A stretch of DNA of 64,000 bases, from the NCBI GenBank assembly GCA_903851365.1, contig CAINOB010000103.1, positions 1-64,000 on the forward strand. The letters run 5' to 3'. Numbering within the stretch: the stretch's first letter is position 1; each line of letters opens with the position of its first letter. Below are positions 2,057 to 7,333 of the stretch, in pieces. Below the pieces are notes generated by a model. That model ran no database searches. It saw nothing but the letters and a program-made list of their open reading frames with translations, and had not been told where the DNA came from. A program made the position numbers and the translations under genes. This stretch comes from an uncultured Bacteroidota bacterium (GTDB lineage Bacteria; Bacteroidota; Bacteroidia; Bacteroidales; UBA12481).

Positions 2057-2675
2057 CGAACAGATTCTGCATCTGGGTGAGTGCCTTAAAAAAGAACTTC
2101 CGGGACGACCGGCACAGGAACTCATGGCTCCATCGGTGAGACCGCCTGGAATGGACCGGTTCGACGGATCGAACCCCCGGTCGAGCGGTGTGATGATTTT
2201 GCTTTTCCCTGGGGTGGTAGGAATTAGTACGGTATTTATTCTCAGAACATTGGGGGGGCCGCACGGAGGGCAGATATCCCTTCCCGGAGGCAAACAGGAA
2301 CCCGAAGAAACGGATCTGACTGATACTGCCATCAGGGAGACTCATGAGGAGGTAGGCGTGAATCCGGAATTGATTGGAGTAATAGGCAGATTAACTCCCT
2401 TATATGTGCCTCACAGCAATTTTATTATACAACCCGTTGTCGGATATTTGAAATCTAAGCCTGAGTTTATTTTGGATCAAAAGGAAGTCGCCGGGGTGAT
2501 TGTAGTGGAATTACAACAGTTGTTTCATCCGGAGAACCGAAAAACCATGATCCTGAGTCGTTCAGGACTGGACATAACCGCTCCATATTATGACGTTTCC
2601 GGCCACCGGATCTGGGGCGCAACTGCTATGATAATGAGTGAGTTTGAGAGGATCTTTATTTCCTGTATTTCCTGA
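2049..2675 (+). CDS. Nudix hydrolase, CoA pyrophosphatase-like
   Basis: This 208-residue cytoplasmic enzyme carries a Nudix box at about residues 80-103 (PGGKQEP ... RETHEEVGV). It is preceded by HGGQISLPGG, the UPF0035-type signature that marks CoA/acyl-CoA pyrophosphatases within the Nudix superfamily. The expected reaction is hydrolysis of CoA to 3',5'-ADP and 4'-phosphopantetheine. Two ATGs are possible: 2028 (29-base overlap with the porin) or 2049 (8-base overlap). The second is preferred because relatives start close to the LKKELPG helix. The 3' end overlaps the convergent gatD gene by 20 bases. Substrate specificity is inferred from the motif only. Confidence 0.82.
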   Translation: MISEQILHLGECLKKELPGRPAQELMAPSVRPPGMDRFDGSNPRSSGVMILLFPGVVGISTVFILRTLGGPHGGQISLPGGKQEPEETDLTDTAIRETHEEVGVNPELIGVIGRLTPLYVPHSNFIIQPVVGYLKSKPEFILDQKEVAGVIVVELQQLFHPENRKTMILSRSGLDITAPYYDVSGHRIWGATAMIMSEFERIFISCIS

Positions 2676-4041
2676 TAAAATCTTCAACTTCGGGAACACC
2701 CCCCTGATATACCAGGTAACCATTGTATGGTTCCCGACCGGTAATCTCTTCGTTTATAGGCTTTAGCATGATCTCTTTGACCTTTTCGAGGTCCGAAGTC
2801 TGGCCCAGGGCCCATCCCAGCTTGATATAGGCTGCTTCGGGAAGCATGTTTTCCAGCGGTATAACACCCATAGCCATCAAATCACGACCGGTGTCATAAA
2901 CATACATGTGAACATATCCCCAAAGGGTTTGGACCGTCATATAGATGGCAACTCCCCGGTCACGGGCCCGTTCAATGGCAGGATAGAGCTCCTTGTTTAC
3001 GTGCCCGAGTCCGGTCCCGATGATGATAATCCCTTTATAACCAAGATCAACCAAAGAATCAATGGTGTCAGGATTCATGTGCGGATAAAAGTAGATCATG
3101 GAAACACGATCCTCGAAGAAAGGATATATGTCGACATTACGATCTTTCCGGCGATGATTGTAATTCTTTTTTATTGGCCTGATTTCACCTCTTCTAACGG
3201 TGGCTATAGGTGTATCTCCAATTGTGCGGAAGGTTGACCGGTAGGATGAATGCATTTTTCTGACCCGTGTGCCACGGTGTAAAAATCCGTACTCATCGGA
3301 GGTGGGGCCGAACATGCAAACCATTACTTCGGCAATATCTCCATGACCTGCAGCATAGCAAGAATGCATCAGGTTGAGTGCAGCATCGGAGGAAGGCCGG
3401 TCGGAAGATCGTTGTGAACCAACTAAAATTATAGGAACAGGAGGGTTTTGGACCATGAATGAGAGGGCCATGGCTGTGTGTCCCAGCGTATCTGTACCAT
3501 GTCCGATAACAATTCCGTCGACACCGCTTTCGATCTCTTTTTTAATTGCGATCGCCAGCGCCTTATATTGATCAGGACCCATGTTTTCGCTGAAGACCGC
3601 AAATACTTTTTCCGTATGGAGGTTACATATTTCAGCAAGTTCAGGTACTGCACCGTATAATTCGCCAGGTGAGAAAGCGGGAATAACTGCCCCGGTCCGG
3701 TAATCCAGACGACTGGCAATGGTGCCGCCAGTACCGATCAGCTTGACTTTTGGAAGGTTTGGAGTAAAGGGAAATTCCTTTTCGGGAATTTTATAATTCG
3801 CCTTAAAGTAGTTCACTTCCTTCATCGATAATATGGTATGCGTATCGATACCGATATTGTAACCTGTAGCTATTTTGACAACAATATGATGATGATCGTC
3901 ATTTTCGGCACGAGGTAAAACGGTGCCTTTGAAAAAACCACGGGTGGTTTCGAATTCGGCAATTCCCCAAACACGGACATTAAACTTCTTCAATATGTCG
4001 AGGCCTTCACCTTTATATCCCTGGAAAAAATCTTCGTTCAT
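2656..4041 (-). CDS. gatD: Glutamyl-tRNA(Gln) amidotransferase subunit D (archaeal type)
   Basis: This 461-residue protein is an asparaginase-type amidase with an extra N-terminal beta-barrel domain (about 1-90), the layout of archaeal GatD. Active-site elements are visible: GTGGTIAS (103-110, nucleophile Thr107), HGTDT (181-185, Thr183/Asp184) and TRVRKMHSS, with Lys262 as the likely base. GatD releases ammonia from Gln or Asn and channels it to GatE, which amidates Glu-tRNA(Gln). Plain bacterial AnsA/AnsB asparaginases (about 330-350 residues) lack the N-terminal domain and do not sit beside a GatB-like gene. The start codon overlaps the gatE stop (ATGA), so translation is coupled. GatDE is generally described as archaea-specific, so its presence here is unusual. 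Confidence 0.93.
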   Translation of the reverse strand: MNEDFFQGYKGEGLDILKKFNVRVWGIAEFETTRGFFKGTVLPRAENDDHHHIVVKIATGYNIGIDTHTILSMKEVNYFKANYKIPEKEFPFTPNLPKVKLIGTGGTIASRLDYRTGAVIPAFSPGELYGAVPELAEICNLHTEKVFAVFSENMGPDQYKALAIAIKKEIESGVDGIVIGHGTDTLGHTAMALSFMVQNPPVPIILVGSQRSSDRPSSDAALNLMHSCYAAGHGDIAEVMVCMFGPTSDEYGFLHRGTRVRKMHSSYRSTFRTIGDTPIATVRRGEIRPIKKNYNHRRKDRNVDIYPFFEDRVSMIYFYPHMNPDTIDSLVDLGYKGIIIIGTGLGHVNKELYPAIERARDRGVAIYMTVQTLWGYVHMYVYDTGRDLMAMGVIPLENMLPEAAYIKLGWALGQTSDLEKVKEIMLKPINEEITGREPYNGYLVYQGGVPEVEDFIRKYRK

Positions 4042-6050
4042 AATTGATCTGTGGACAGTTGTTCAGAAATTTCTTTTGCTACCTGCACTTGAATCAGCCT
4101 GCTATATTCGTTTAATGGAATATTGCCGAGAGCCTGATTACGTATTTGGCCCATGAGCCAATTCAGTGTTACTGATGATTGATCGGATTTCCTTATTTCC
4201 CTGAATTTTCCGATCAGAAAACTTACTGGTGCAAGTAATTCATCCTGGCTCCTTTTTTTGAATTTCAGGCTGGTTAAGATACTGGCGAAATCCATTTTCG
4301 GATAATCCATCATCACGGCCAGAATGGGTCGGGCAATTGCCTGATCGAGTTTGTTTGAACGGATAAAGCTGAACAGGTCATATATTTTTTCAGCGGAAAA
4401 TTCTTTGTGAGGCTGTTTCTGACCCTCGAGATATTTTAATGTGTGACCAAGAAAAGTGCCGATAAATTTGTGAGTGAATCCGAAGTCATCCGAGATCTTT
4501 TCGATCAGAGGAACCAGATTTTTCTTGAGAACATAATGGTAAGTGTCTGAAGGTATTCCCCATTCCTGCATCTGAGCTATCCGGGTACTTACAGGAACCG
4601 GCAGGTTTTTGCCTAAGCGGTTGATATATTCCTCCTCCAATGGAATAGGGGCAGAATCAGTATCCGGGTACATGCGGTCTGCACCTGGTAGTACTCGTTC
4701 AAAAATCGTCGTTCCATCAGCCAGGGCCTTCCTGGTTTCGCGAGGGATATGGTCGAAAGCCATCAGACAGCGCTCCTCAATGGTTTCCAGGGCTGTTTTT
4801 ATATCAGCTTCCTGTCCCCAGAAAACGATCTGGGCGTCGTTTTCATTGGCGCTCAGCCATTTTTTAATTTTTTCAAAGTCGATATTGTTTTCCTCAATAT
4901 TGATTGATTCTGAAGTGATCATATTGGGTTTTTCGATACAGGCAATAACCTTCAACCGATCGGAGATTTCGTTTGCGAAACATTTCCCTGGCTGGGTGAA
5001 ATGGGAAAGAATCCCCTGGAACATCGGAAGGTTCACGGCAACAATCCGGTACCCACATTTCCTTGCATCACTAATAACCGGGTTATCGGAGTTTAATTTT
5101 TCATAAACAAGAGGAACCGATTTTATATGCCAGCTGGTTTTATCGGCAATGCGTTCCTTGATAATATCGCGGATCCTGAGCAGTGCAAATTGCCGGAAAG
5201 CTTCATTATGGCTTAGTCGGGGGATCCACTTATTATGGGATACTCCTTTAATCTCCACCCTGTCGCCGCCGCGGCAACTAACATTAACATCTTCGCGGCC
5301 TGATCCAATGCCAGTCCTGACCCTGCCGGTGCTGCGATTCAGAAAACGGATATATTCGGCCGCTTCCCTGAGCTCAAATGGAGTTTCGCAATCAGGATAA
5401 GTGACCGTTTCGATCAGTGGCATACCCAGTCGGTCGGTTTTATACATCCTGGTGTGTCCGACATCCGAAATCTCCCTGCATGAATCTTCTTCAATGCTGA
5501 GTTGTATCAGCCTGATTTTCTTATTGGATATCTGAATCTCCCCTTCGACGCCCAGAATGGCGGTACGCTGAAATCCTGTAGGGATACTTCCGTCGAGATA
5601 TTGTTTTCTCGTGATATGGACCTCCCCAACGACGTTCAGGTTCGATAATAATGAAATCTCCAGGGCATAGTCGAGCGCTTCCCGGTTAATTTTAAAAGGT
5701 GGAGTATCATCAATATCATAAGTACAGGCATTTTCGTTATTCAGCCGGTAGATTATTTCTTTTCGCGTTCTGAACTCCATCAGAGCGGTACCATCATACT
5801 CACCCATCTCGCTGAGGGTAGGGCGCATATGACGGATTAATTCTCCGTCATAATCTTCATCCTGGTTGTAAATTCCCGCCGGACAACGGCAGAAAAGTTT
5901 GTGACGGGTATTTAGCTGCTGGTGAACTTCGAGTCCTGACATGAACCCGATCCTTTTCCAGTCTTCAATAGTAGCTTCCGAGAGGGGAACGTAACCTATA
6001 GCGTTTCTGGATTCCAGATGGTTACGGGCAGCATCAAAAGAGTTTCTCAT
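4038..6050 (-). CDS. gatE: Glutamyl-tRNA(Gln) amidotransferase subunit E (archaeal type)
   Basis: This 670-residue protein is the tRNA-binding and kinase/transamidase subunit partnered with GatD. It contains the GatB/GatE signature GLEVHQQL (39-46) followed by KLFCRCP, with CxC residues like the zinc site of GatB. After the catalytic cradle comes a central segment (roughly 300-420) in the place of the AspRS-like insertion that separates GatE from bacterial GatB. The C-terminal helical/YqeY-like tail follows. At 670 residues it is far longer than GatB (about 475-500) and slightly longer than archaeal GatE (about 620-640), mainly by an N-terminal extension of about 30 residues. It converts Glu-tRNA(Gln) to Gln-tRNA(Gln) using ATP. 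It lies 22 bases downstream of the LolC/E-like gene. Confidence 0.93.
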   Translation of the reverse strand: MRNSFDAARNHLESRNAIGYVPLSEATIEDWKRIGFMSGLEVHQQLNTRHKLFCRCPAGIYNQDEDYDGELIRHMRPTLSEMGEYDGTALMEFRTRKEIIYRLNNENACTYDIDDTPPFKINREALDYALEISLLSNLNVVGEVHITRKQYLDGSIPTGFQRTAILGVEGEIQISNKKIRLIQLSIEEDSCREISDVGHTRMYKTDRLGMPLIETVTYPDCETPFELREAAEYIRFLNRSTGRVRTGIGSGREDVNVSCRGGDRVEIKGVSHNKWIPRLSHNEAFRQFALLRIRDIIKERIADKTSWHIKSVPLVYEKLNSDNPVISDARKCGYRIVAVNLPMFQGILSHFTQPGKCFANEISDRLKVIACIEKPNMITSESINIEENNIDFEKIKKWLSANENDAQIVFWGQEADIKTALETIEERCLMAFDHIPRETRKALADGTTIFERVLPGADRMYPDTDSAPIPLEEEYINRLGKNLPVPVSTRIAQMQEWGIPSDTYHYVLKKNLVPLIEKISDDFGFTHKFIGTFLGHTLKYLEGQKQPHKEFSAEKIYDLFSFIRSNKLDQAIARPILAVMMDYPKMDFASILTSLKFKKRSQDELLAPVSFLIGKFREIRKSDQSSVTLNWLMGQIRNQALGNIPLNEYSRLIQVQVAKEISEQLSTDQL

Positions 6051-6071: not shown

Positions 6072-7313
6072 TTAATCAAATTTAATTGTTTTTCCGGGGC
6101 TGATCCTGGTTAAAAAAGTTGCCGGGATGAGCATCATCAGGAGTGTCAGTAACAAGGTACCAACATTCAAAATCAGCAGATGAAAAGGATTAATATGGAT
6201 AGGCACGGAATCAACAAAATAGGAGATCGGATTTAGTGGTATCACCCGGAACCGGTCCTGGATGAAGGCGATTGCCAGTCCTATAATATTGCCGAGCAGC
6301 AGTCCCTTGCCGATAATATATACTGCCTGATAAAGGAAAATCTTTGACATGGAGCGGTTGTCTGTTCCGAGGGCCTTAAGTGTTCCGATCATCTTTGTTC
6401 TATCGAGAATAATGATCAGGAGTCCGGATATCATATTAAAGCCGGCGATAAGAATCATCAGTGCCAAGATCACCCAGACATTAGTATCGGTCAAACTTAG
6501 GAAATCAAAAAAACCAGGTGCCAGGTCCTTTAATGTTTTGACCTGCATTAGATTATCAGAATTTATGGTGCTTTTATCTACGACATCGCGGATGTGGGCC
6601 GCCACCTGATCCATTTTTGAAGGGTCCTTTAATCTGATTTCGAAGCCGCTGATATCAGTTGAAGTCCAATTATTTATATCTCTGATCTGCTCCAGATGGC
6701 AATAAACAAAAACCTGATCATATTCTTCGAGCCCGGTTTCATAGATTCCGCAAACCTTGAATGGTCTCATTCTTGGTGGGTCCTGGATGAAATAGGTTGG
6801 AATTTTCATACCGGTAACTATCCTGAGACGGTTGGCGAGTGATTTGGAAATCAGCACTTCGAGCGAATCAGGATTATCCAGGTCGGGGACCCTGCCGGCA
6901 ATAAGATTTCTTGAGAAGAAATCCCACTTATATCCGGGAGCAACTCCTTTCAGAATAATGCCCTGTAATTCCTTGCCAGATTGGACCATACCAGGTTTTG
7001 TGGCAAAAGGATAAATCCCACTTATATCGGGTTCCTGTTTTAGGGATTTCAGAAAAGGCTGATTGAGGCTGATTGGGCCTGTTTCCCAGGAATTATTGGA
7101 AGTTAGTCTGCTGATTTGAATATGGGAGCCAAAACCTGTAAGTTTATCCTTGATTTCTTTCTTAAAGCCTGCAAGAATGGCGATGGAGAGGATCATGACT
7201 GCTACACTCAGGGCGATAGCAATGACAGAAACATTAACCAGGGTATTCGCCCCTGATTTTTTACCGGTTGAGCTCCGGATGATTTTTTTTACGATGAAAA
7301 ATTCGAAATTCAC
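6072..7313 (-). CDS. LolC/LolE-like ABC transporter permease (FtsX superfamily)
   Basis: This protein of about 413 residues has an N-terminal membrane segment (about 25-48), a large periplasmic MacB-like domain and three C-terminal membrane segments (about 275-300, 320-345, 370-395), the LolC/E topology. The role expected is release of lipoproteins from the inner membrane, with a LolD ATPase and a LolA carrier. A LolD-like ATPase is encoded far away at 36023. No ATG is available near the start. GTG at 7313 gives MNFEFFIVKK, the usual N-terminus of the family, and is preferred over TTG at 7319. A minus-strand -7 box lies at 7334-7341. The gene heads an apparent operon with gatE and gatD, an association with no obvious functional logic. 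Confidence 0.85.
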   Translation of the reverse strand: MNFEFFIVKKIIRSSTGKKSGANTLVNVSVIAIALSVAVMILSIAILAGFKKEIKDKLTGFGSHIQISRLTSNNSWETGPISLNQPFLKSLKQEPDISGIYPFATKPGMVQSGKELQGIILKGVAPGYKWDFFSRNLIAGRVPDLDNPDSLEVLISKSLANRLRIVTGMKIPTYFIQDPPRMRPFKVCGIYETGLEEYDQVFVYCHLEQIRDINNWTSTDISGFEIRLKDPSKMDQVAAHIRDVVDKSTINSDNLMQVKTLKDLAPGFFDFLSLTDTNVWVILALMILIAGFNMISGLLIIILDRTKMIGTLKALGTDNRSMSKIFLYQAVYIIGKGLLLGNIIGLAIAFIQDRFRVIPLNPISYFVDSVPIHINPFHLLILNVGTLLLTLLMMLIPATFLTRISPGKTIKFD

Positions 7314-7333
7314 AGGCAAGACCTGATTTTAGG

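Follow-up and report, generated by a model that had tools for sequence, protein, structure and literature searches.

What does an amidotransferase of the archaeal GatDE type do in a bacterium? This question is raised by two overlapping genes in a stretch of 64,000 nucleotides (the window; positions 1 to 64,000 of contig CAINOB010000103.1, assembly GCA_903851365.1) from an uncultured Bacteroidota bacterium of the order Bacteroidales. On the reverse strand, gatE (4038-6050) encodes a transamidase/kinase subunit of 670 amino acids and gatD (2656-4041) an asparaginase-like, ammonia-releasing subunit of 461 amino acids. The gatE stop and the gatD start overlap by 4 bases (4038-4041, reverse strand), and the lengths given in a preliminary description of this DNA, made from the letters alone, were borne out. 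As that description said, GatDE is called archaea-only in passages of PMC9499178 and PMC8007984, and all known archaea are stated in the former to lack glutaminyl-tRNA synthetase (GlnRS). The observations reported here show that two published statements do not hold: GatDE occurs outside archaea, and genomes that carry it can also carry GlnRS.

The identity of the pair as a GatDE-type enzyme and its spread among bacteria are firm. GatE passed the curated cut-offs of NF003107 (480.8 bits; cut-off, 456) and TIGR00134 (423.7 bits; cut-off, 319.55), whereas the GatB model TIGR00133 gave 121.9 bits, far under its cut-off of 314.8. GatD scored 498.3 bits against TIGR02153 (cut-off, 324) and also matched Pfam GatD_N, Asparaginase and Asparaginase_C; it passed the broad type I asparaginase subfamily model TIGR00519 as well (373.6 bits; cut-off, 260.5), while the asparaginase equivalog models stayed far under their cut-offs on it. 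Among 14 control genomes, a list that includes four archaea, the GatE and GatD models were each exceeded in four genomes, reported by number and not by name. The closest Protein Data Bank relatives by sequence were two archaeal GatDE (311 and 273 bits for GatE; 389 and 367 bits for GatD), and the best GatB entry reached 76 bits against GatE. The preliminary description's assignment of a GatDE-type pair to a Bacteroidota genome was upheld. The pair resembles archaeal GatDE (Methanothermobacter, 2D6F; Pyrococcus abyssi, 1ZQ1) in the cut-offs passed, the fold, the insertion related to aspartyl-tRNA synthetase (AspRS) and the active-region residues; identity to the archaeal loci is ca. 30-34% for GatE and 40-46% for GatD. 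With bacterial GatCAB it has the GatB/GatE catalytic domain in common, but the ammonia subunit is an asparaginase-like GatD instead of the amidase GatA. GatD shares its asparaginase domains with type I L-asparaginase (AnsA) but is unlike it in the GatD_N match, the GatD-specific model passed and the linkage to gatE; a separate asparaginase-like protein of the host (contig C62, 201.7 bits) lies below the GatD cut-off.

An AlphaFold2 model of GatE (pLDDT, 87.5) was compared with known folds. The archaeal GatE structures 2d6f (Z, 35.0) and 1zq1 (Z, 31.1) ranked ahead of GatB chains (Z, 25-28.7). Residues ca. 304-435 (4746-5141, reverse strand) aligned with AspRS insertion domains in VIA-align over eight entries (Z, 7.9-10.4), so that the AspRS-like insertion proposed in the preliminary description is seen, by fold, in the structural model; the Pfam GAD model had no match on GatE. 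Support is weaker for residues ca. 485-670 (4041-4598, reverse strand), a helical region with a probable YqeY-like tail. This region aligned with the tRNA-binding domain of GlnRS 3tl4 (Z, 8.0; root mean square deviation, 5.5), and GatB 3ip4_B aligned as far as residue 670, although the last 75 residues, beyond residue 595, are barely tested by fold; Pfam GatB_Yqey gave 26.1 bits, just below its cut-off of 27. In GatD, the GatD_N barrel match covers residues 37-69 (3835-3933, reverse strand; Pfam, 37.7 bits), and Pfam and alignment place the asparaginase domains at residues 98-425 (2767-3750, reverse strand), including T107, T183, D184 and K262.

Eleven residues of the GatE active region were checked in 81 + 19 bacterial and 30 archaeal sequences: ten do not vary, and the eleventh, H145, differs in one archaeon. 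Since the Cys pair C54/C56, which is among the eleven, is missing in the GatE of P. abyssi (outside the alignment), it is not a defining GatDE feature. We take the acidic and His residues to form the active region common to GatB. In GatD, T107, T183, D184 and K262, presumably the catalytic set, were present as the preliminary description had them, and none of the four varies among 69 + 18 bacterial and 30 archaeal GatD. The ratio of nonsynonymous to synonymous substitution rates (dN/dS) was 0.021 and 0.023 for gatE against two genus relatives, with dS near 2 and saturated, and 0.004 and 0.033 for gatD against two relatives, with dS also saturated; the remaining pairs yielded no dS. Judged from these ratios, gatE is under purifying selection. 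Bacterial GatDE is strongly conserved and looks catalytically competent.

Of 60 genomes drawn from the genus, family and order, 26 exceeded the GatE cut-off, among them all eight of the genus (the host and 7/7 others drawn). Elsewhere, gatE of G008 is interrupted by a contig end with GatD encoded alongside, and GatE of G057 scored 292 bits. A draw across the phylum gave 22 passing genomes out of 296: the host plus 21 from other classes. Besides the host, no genome of its class (70 drawn) or of its order (2 drawn) passed. A contig scan confirmed at least 583 relatives, archaeal GatE and GatB possibly among them; its best 80, to which the scan was limited, were mostly Bacteroidales records, the others including cultured Marinifilum, Labilibaculum and Perlabentimonas, one archaeon and seven records whose titles name other bacterial phyla. 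The other-phylum titles, all of metagenome-assembled genomes (MAGs), were Aminicenantes, Cloacimonadota, Zixiibacteriota and Neomarinimicrobiota; assignment outside Bacteroidota follows such titles, which can be wrong. Many families of the order and further classes of the phylum have GatDE, which reaches five bacterial phyla if record titles are followed. As the unusual feature singled out in the preliminary description, the pair does depart from the archaea-only account, but it is widespread and not peculiar to one genome. Archaeal contamination of the assembly, which that description had raised, is so improbable that it can be set aside. Nothing was found in its favour, and the host pair lies in a 218-kb contig, its adjoining genes are common to same-genus genomes, and cultured isolates carry GatDE, for example on a 727-kb contig of Marinifilum flexuosum DSM 21950.

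The two genes keep company in a fixed order. In all 71 bacterial scan loci where both genes were found, the order was gatE-gatD; eight of the 79 bacterial scan loci show no gatD, and in six of these the stretch ends too early. The phylum-draw loci had gatE-gatD in 19 of 20, with the remaining one cut. In archaeal loci, by contrast, the order was gatD-gatE in 30/30 (29 by script and L195, where the two open reading frames overlap by 71 bases, by coordinates). A neighbourhood comparison of 99 loci showed no common partner apart from gatE-gatD itself. One gene stands between gatE and gatD in L070 (9846-11123) and in L068, a secreted M28 peptidase by Pfam in L070, and gatD is split over two frames in the MAG contigs L170 and L171, through either sequencing error or decay.

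A GatE tree was computed with GatB as the outgroup from 51 of the 82 rows of a larger tree; that larger tree had itself been thinned from a first one by dropping ten Bacteroidota, one GatB and three archaeal rows and a half-length Natrinema row, which is present in the first tree only. Archaea were represented by one phylum, in which 78 of 80 searched genomes exceeded the GatE cut-off, and by P. abyssi. The 29 bacterial GatE formed one clade (100/99; bootstrap, 100) and the 15 archaeal GatE another (100/98), the bacterial clade lying beside and not inside the sampled archaeal one, with GatB apart as a separate clade. Bacterial GatE divides into two subclades, of which the second belongs to other classes of the phylum. 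With this second subclade in, the larger tree gave bacterial and archaeal stems of equal length, 0.95 per column; the bacterial stem had been 2.93 in the first tree, where the subclade was left out. L113 (Neomarinimicrobiota by title) and L303 (another class) nest among Bacteroidales GatE, a sign of either mis-binning or transfer between bacteria. L170 (Zixiibacteriota), L162 (Aminicenantes) and the Cloacimonadota pair fall outside Bacteroidales GatE, and the other two Aminicenantes GatE sit at the base of the Bacteroidales sequences with no resolved branching. A tree of GatD gave a consistent picture (bacterial branch, 98; archaea, 89), although it is poorly rooted, the asparaginase outgroup branches being of length 10. 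GatE does not group with GatB, nor GatD with the two asparaginases used, and the trees did not overturn the preliminary description.

As for the separate question of origin, for which the preliminary description had offered lateral transfer from archaea or an old bacterial lineage, it is somewhat more likely than not that GatE and GatD entered bacteria in one old transfer from an unsampled archaeal lineage and then spread among bacteria. The patchy distribution described above (26/60 relatives; 22/296 in the phylum draw, with no same-class or same-order genome besides the host) and the nesting of L113 and L303, if not mis-binned, are consistent with this. Against it stand the failure of the bacterial clade to nest within the sampled archaea (one phylum and P. 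abyssi), the reversed gene order, and a phylogenetic argument, cited in the review PMC9499178, that GatDE was already present in the last universal common ancestor.

The preliminary description had wondered how this cell makes Gln-tRNA and Asn-tRNA. Since the host encodes a full-length GlnRS (contig C39, 730.6 bits) and a full-length asparaginyl-tRNA synthetase (AsnRS; C3, 623.3 bits), there is no gap in making either, and the supposed puzzle falls away. GlnRS is kept in most GatE-bearing bacteria: 24/26 in the order set, 43/48 in the scan set and 19/21 in the phylum draw, where the first two sets overlap, with some loci from the same contigs, and are not additive. One further genome of the scan set has GlnRS in fragments, and all seven genomes titled as other phyla have GlnRS over the cut-off. 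No gatA exceeded the cut-off in the host (best GatA match, 173.9 bits; cut-off, 481.1). GatA was over the cut-off in two of the 60 relatives, G024 with GatE and G025 with no GatE over the cut-off, and GatB-sized frames occur in some GatDE-bearing genomes of another class (G319, G371 and G474). One glutamyl-tRNA synthetase (GluRS) was seen in the host through the GlnRS model; this protein (L052) carries extra charged stretches that are absent from most of 20 other aligned GluRS. With regard to gene position, the gene immediately upstream of gatE in G049 (L066, 6701-10502), in the same orientation, encodes GlnRS; in G201:C45:508058-512924, GlnRS is ca. 1.4 kb from gatE on the opposite strand, with gatD between.

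Of 53 genomes put to the tRNA query, 32 gave a match (E up to 1). Complete tRNA-Gln genes comprised 23 from 22 genomes and the second gene of the host (G000), 24 in all; L277 was dropped as truncated, L023 repeats L272, and further matching places in the same genomes were left out. The tRNA-Gln result refers to the order only, as tRNA-Gln was recovered from no non-Bacteroidota genome and no cultured strain. RF00005 gave 39 matches in the host, of which those inside 30 loci were typed with ARAGORN; of nine lying outside, a neighbour or two at most was typed. An earlier pattern search for tRNA-Gln with A37 gave 22 loci; ARAGORN found no tRNA-Gln in the nine to which it was applied, and the method was replaced. 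Both host tRNA-Gln genes have U1:A72 and D-loops of 8 nt. Archaeal GatDE is described in a passage of PMC9499178 as reading A1:U72 and the D-loop of tRNA-Gln, and in one of PMC4810234 as using its smaller D-loop. The discriminator base was A73 in all 24 genes (loci L254-L276 among them), contrary to the G73 given as the bacterial form in the review PMC9499178. In five relatives, a tRNA-Gln gene and the nearby edge of the glnS match are ca. 80-121 bases apart (G034:C4, G017:C339, G016:C22, G050:C27 and G058:C48).

We are inclined, by a modest preference, to explain the pair as an active bacterial GatDE with a repairing or supplementary role on Glu-tRNA(Gln), because of the models passed, the fold, the kept residues, the purifying selection, the gatE-gatD linkage and the coexistence with GlnRS. 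GatD would release ammonia from Gln or Asn, and this would pass to GatE; on a mischarged aminoacyl-tRNA, GatE would activate the side-chain carboxylate with ATP and then amidate it. The substrate would most likely be Glu-tRNA(Gln) arising from occasional GluRS error or Gln shortage, and GatDE would assist the GlnRS route, not replace GlnRS. Several results weigh against this explanation. All 24 tRNA-Gln genes, those of the host included, carry U1:A72 instead of the archaeal A1:U72; the 22 genomes behind them, all of the order, comprise 16 with and 6 without GatDE, and no tRNA property examined separates the two groups. The D-loop of the host tRNA-Glu is also 8 nt by hand folding, so the reported discrimination by a small D-loop is not obvious in the host; together with U1:A72, this suggests that the bacterial enzyme reads other features or that its acceptor differs. 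In addition, the position aligning with T. thermophilus R358 is Arg in all 21 GluRS examined, which would lean towards a discriminating GluRS; this test is weak because G025, with GatA but no GlnRS over the cut-off, also has Arg, and it is further weakened by an H. pylori mutant that showed no effect, as cited in PMC3927822. Finally, archaeal GatE differs at 27 columns in which both bacterial subclades are fixed, and two of the 79 bacterial scan loci (L131 and L166) have no gatD in ca. 4 kb downstream of gatE.

The fixed differences and the lack of A1:U72 in host tRNA-Gln would suit an enzyme that kept its chemistry and changed its acceptor to another aminoacyl-tRNA, a special tRNA or a non-tRNA carboxylate, as would the coexistence of GatDE with GlnRS and AsnRS in the host and with GlnRS in further samples, and the GatB-sized frames beside GatDE in the three genomes named above. 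We regard such a change, the main rival explanation, as rather unlikely, given that the checked active-region residues are retained, no conserved neighbour points to another pathway and the bacterial stem is not unusually long. It is improbable that GatDE is the main Gln-tRNA route with a minor or decaying GlnRS. GlnRS over the cut-off is indeed absent from the GatDE-bearing G044 (96% complete, no GatA match), G008 (95%) and G020 (88%), from G438 (98%) and G474 (99%, with a GatB-sized frame) of the phylum draw, and from five of the 48 scan-set genomes, including the one with GlnRS in pieces; however, it is full length in the host and most GatDE-bearing genomes. GlnRS was missing in 3/28 genomes with a strong GatE signal (the 26 over the cut-off, G057 and the contig-cut G008) versus 3/32 without, and in 2/21 versus 3/20 in the phylum draw, so its loss is not clearly commoner with GatDE than without; incompleteness by itself would lead to ca. 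1.9 losses over the 28 genomes (hand sum of 100 - completeness). A broader proposal, which we put forward tentatively and with more doubt than belief, is that GatDE was not invented by archaea but forms an old, separate bacterial branch in Bacteroidota, Cloacimonadota, Zixibacteria and Aminicenantes, working beside GlnRS and sometimes GatB, with a new acceptor or in quality control of bacterial tRNA-Gln.

The role of GatDE beside GlnRS in bacteria, with which we began, is a testable question. According to passages of the review PMC9499178, GatDE co-evolved with archaeal tRNA-Gln, which is held to explain the lack of GlnRS transfer to archaea; bacteria with both enzymes and a bacterial-type tRNA-Gln make this argument directly testable, and cultured Marinifilum and Labilibaculum provide living material for such tests. 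Searches of the open literature, judged mostly from listings and with subscription papers outside their reach, found no report of bacterial GatDE, and database annotation may already name the genes. Table 2 of PMC3685469 lists COG2511 (archaeal GatE), at ca. 30% identity, among the families found in every one of 11 archaeal groups and in 20 or more of 30 bacterial ones; this listing may come from clustering with GatB, and bacterial GatDE as such is not discussed in the relevant passages of that paper.

Among mobile elements, viral contigs yielded no GatDE relative, and plasmids yielded GatB-type matches and one frame-broken Natrinema gatE (L213, 2402-4350), on a plasmid of Natrinema thermotolerans; the PLSDB gene table for CP031304.1, which omits pseudogenes, lists no feature for this gene. 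In the window, a LolC/E-like ABC permease gene (6072-7319, reverse strand), outside the enzyme, lies 21 bases upstream of gatE on the same strand and possibly shares one transcript with gatE-gatD; its family is present in 22 of the 99 loci compared, some genomes being counted twice.

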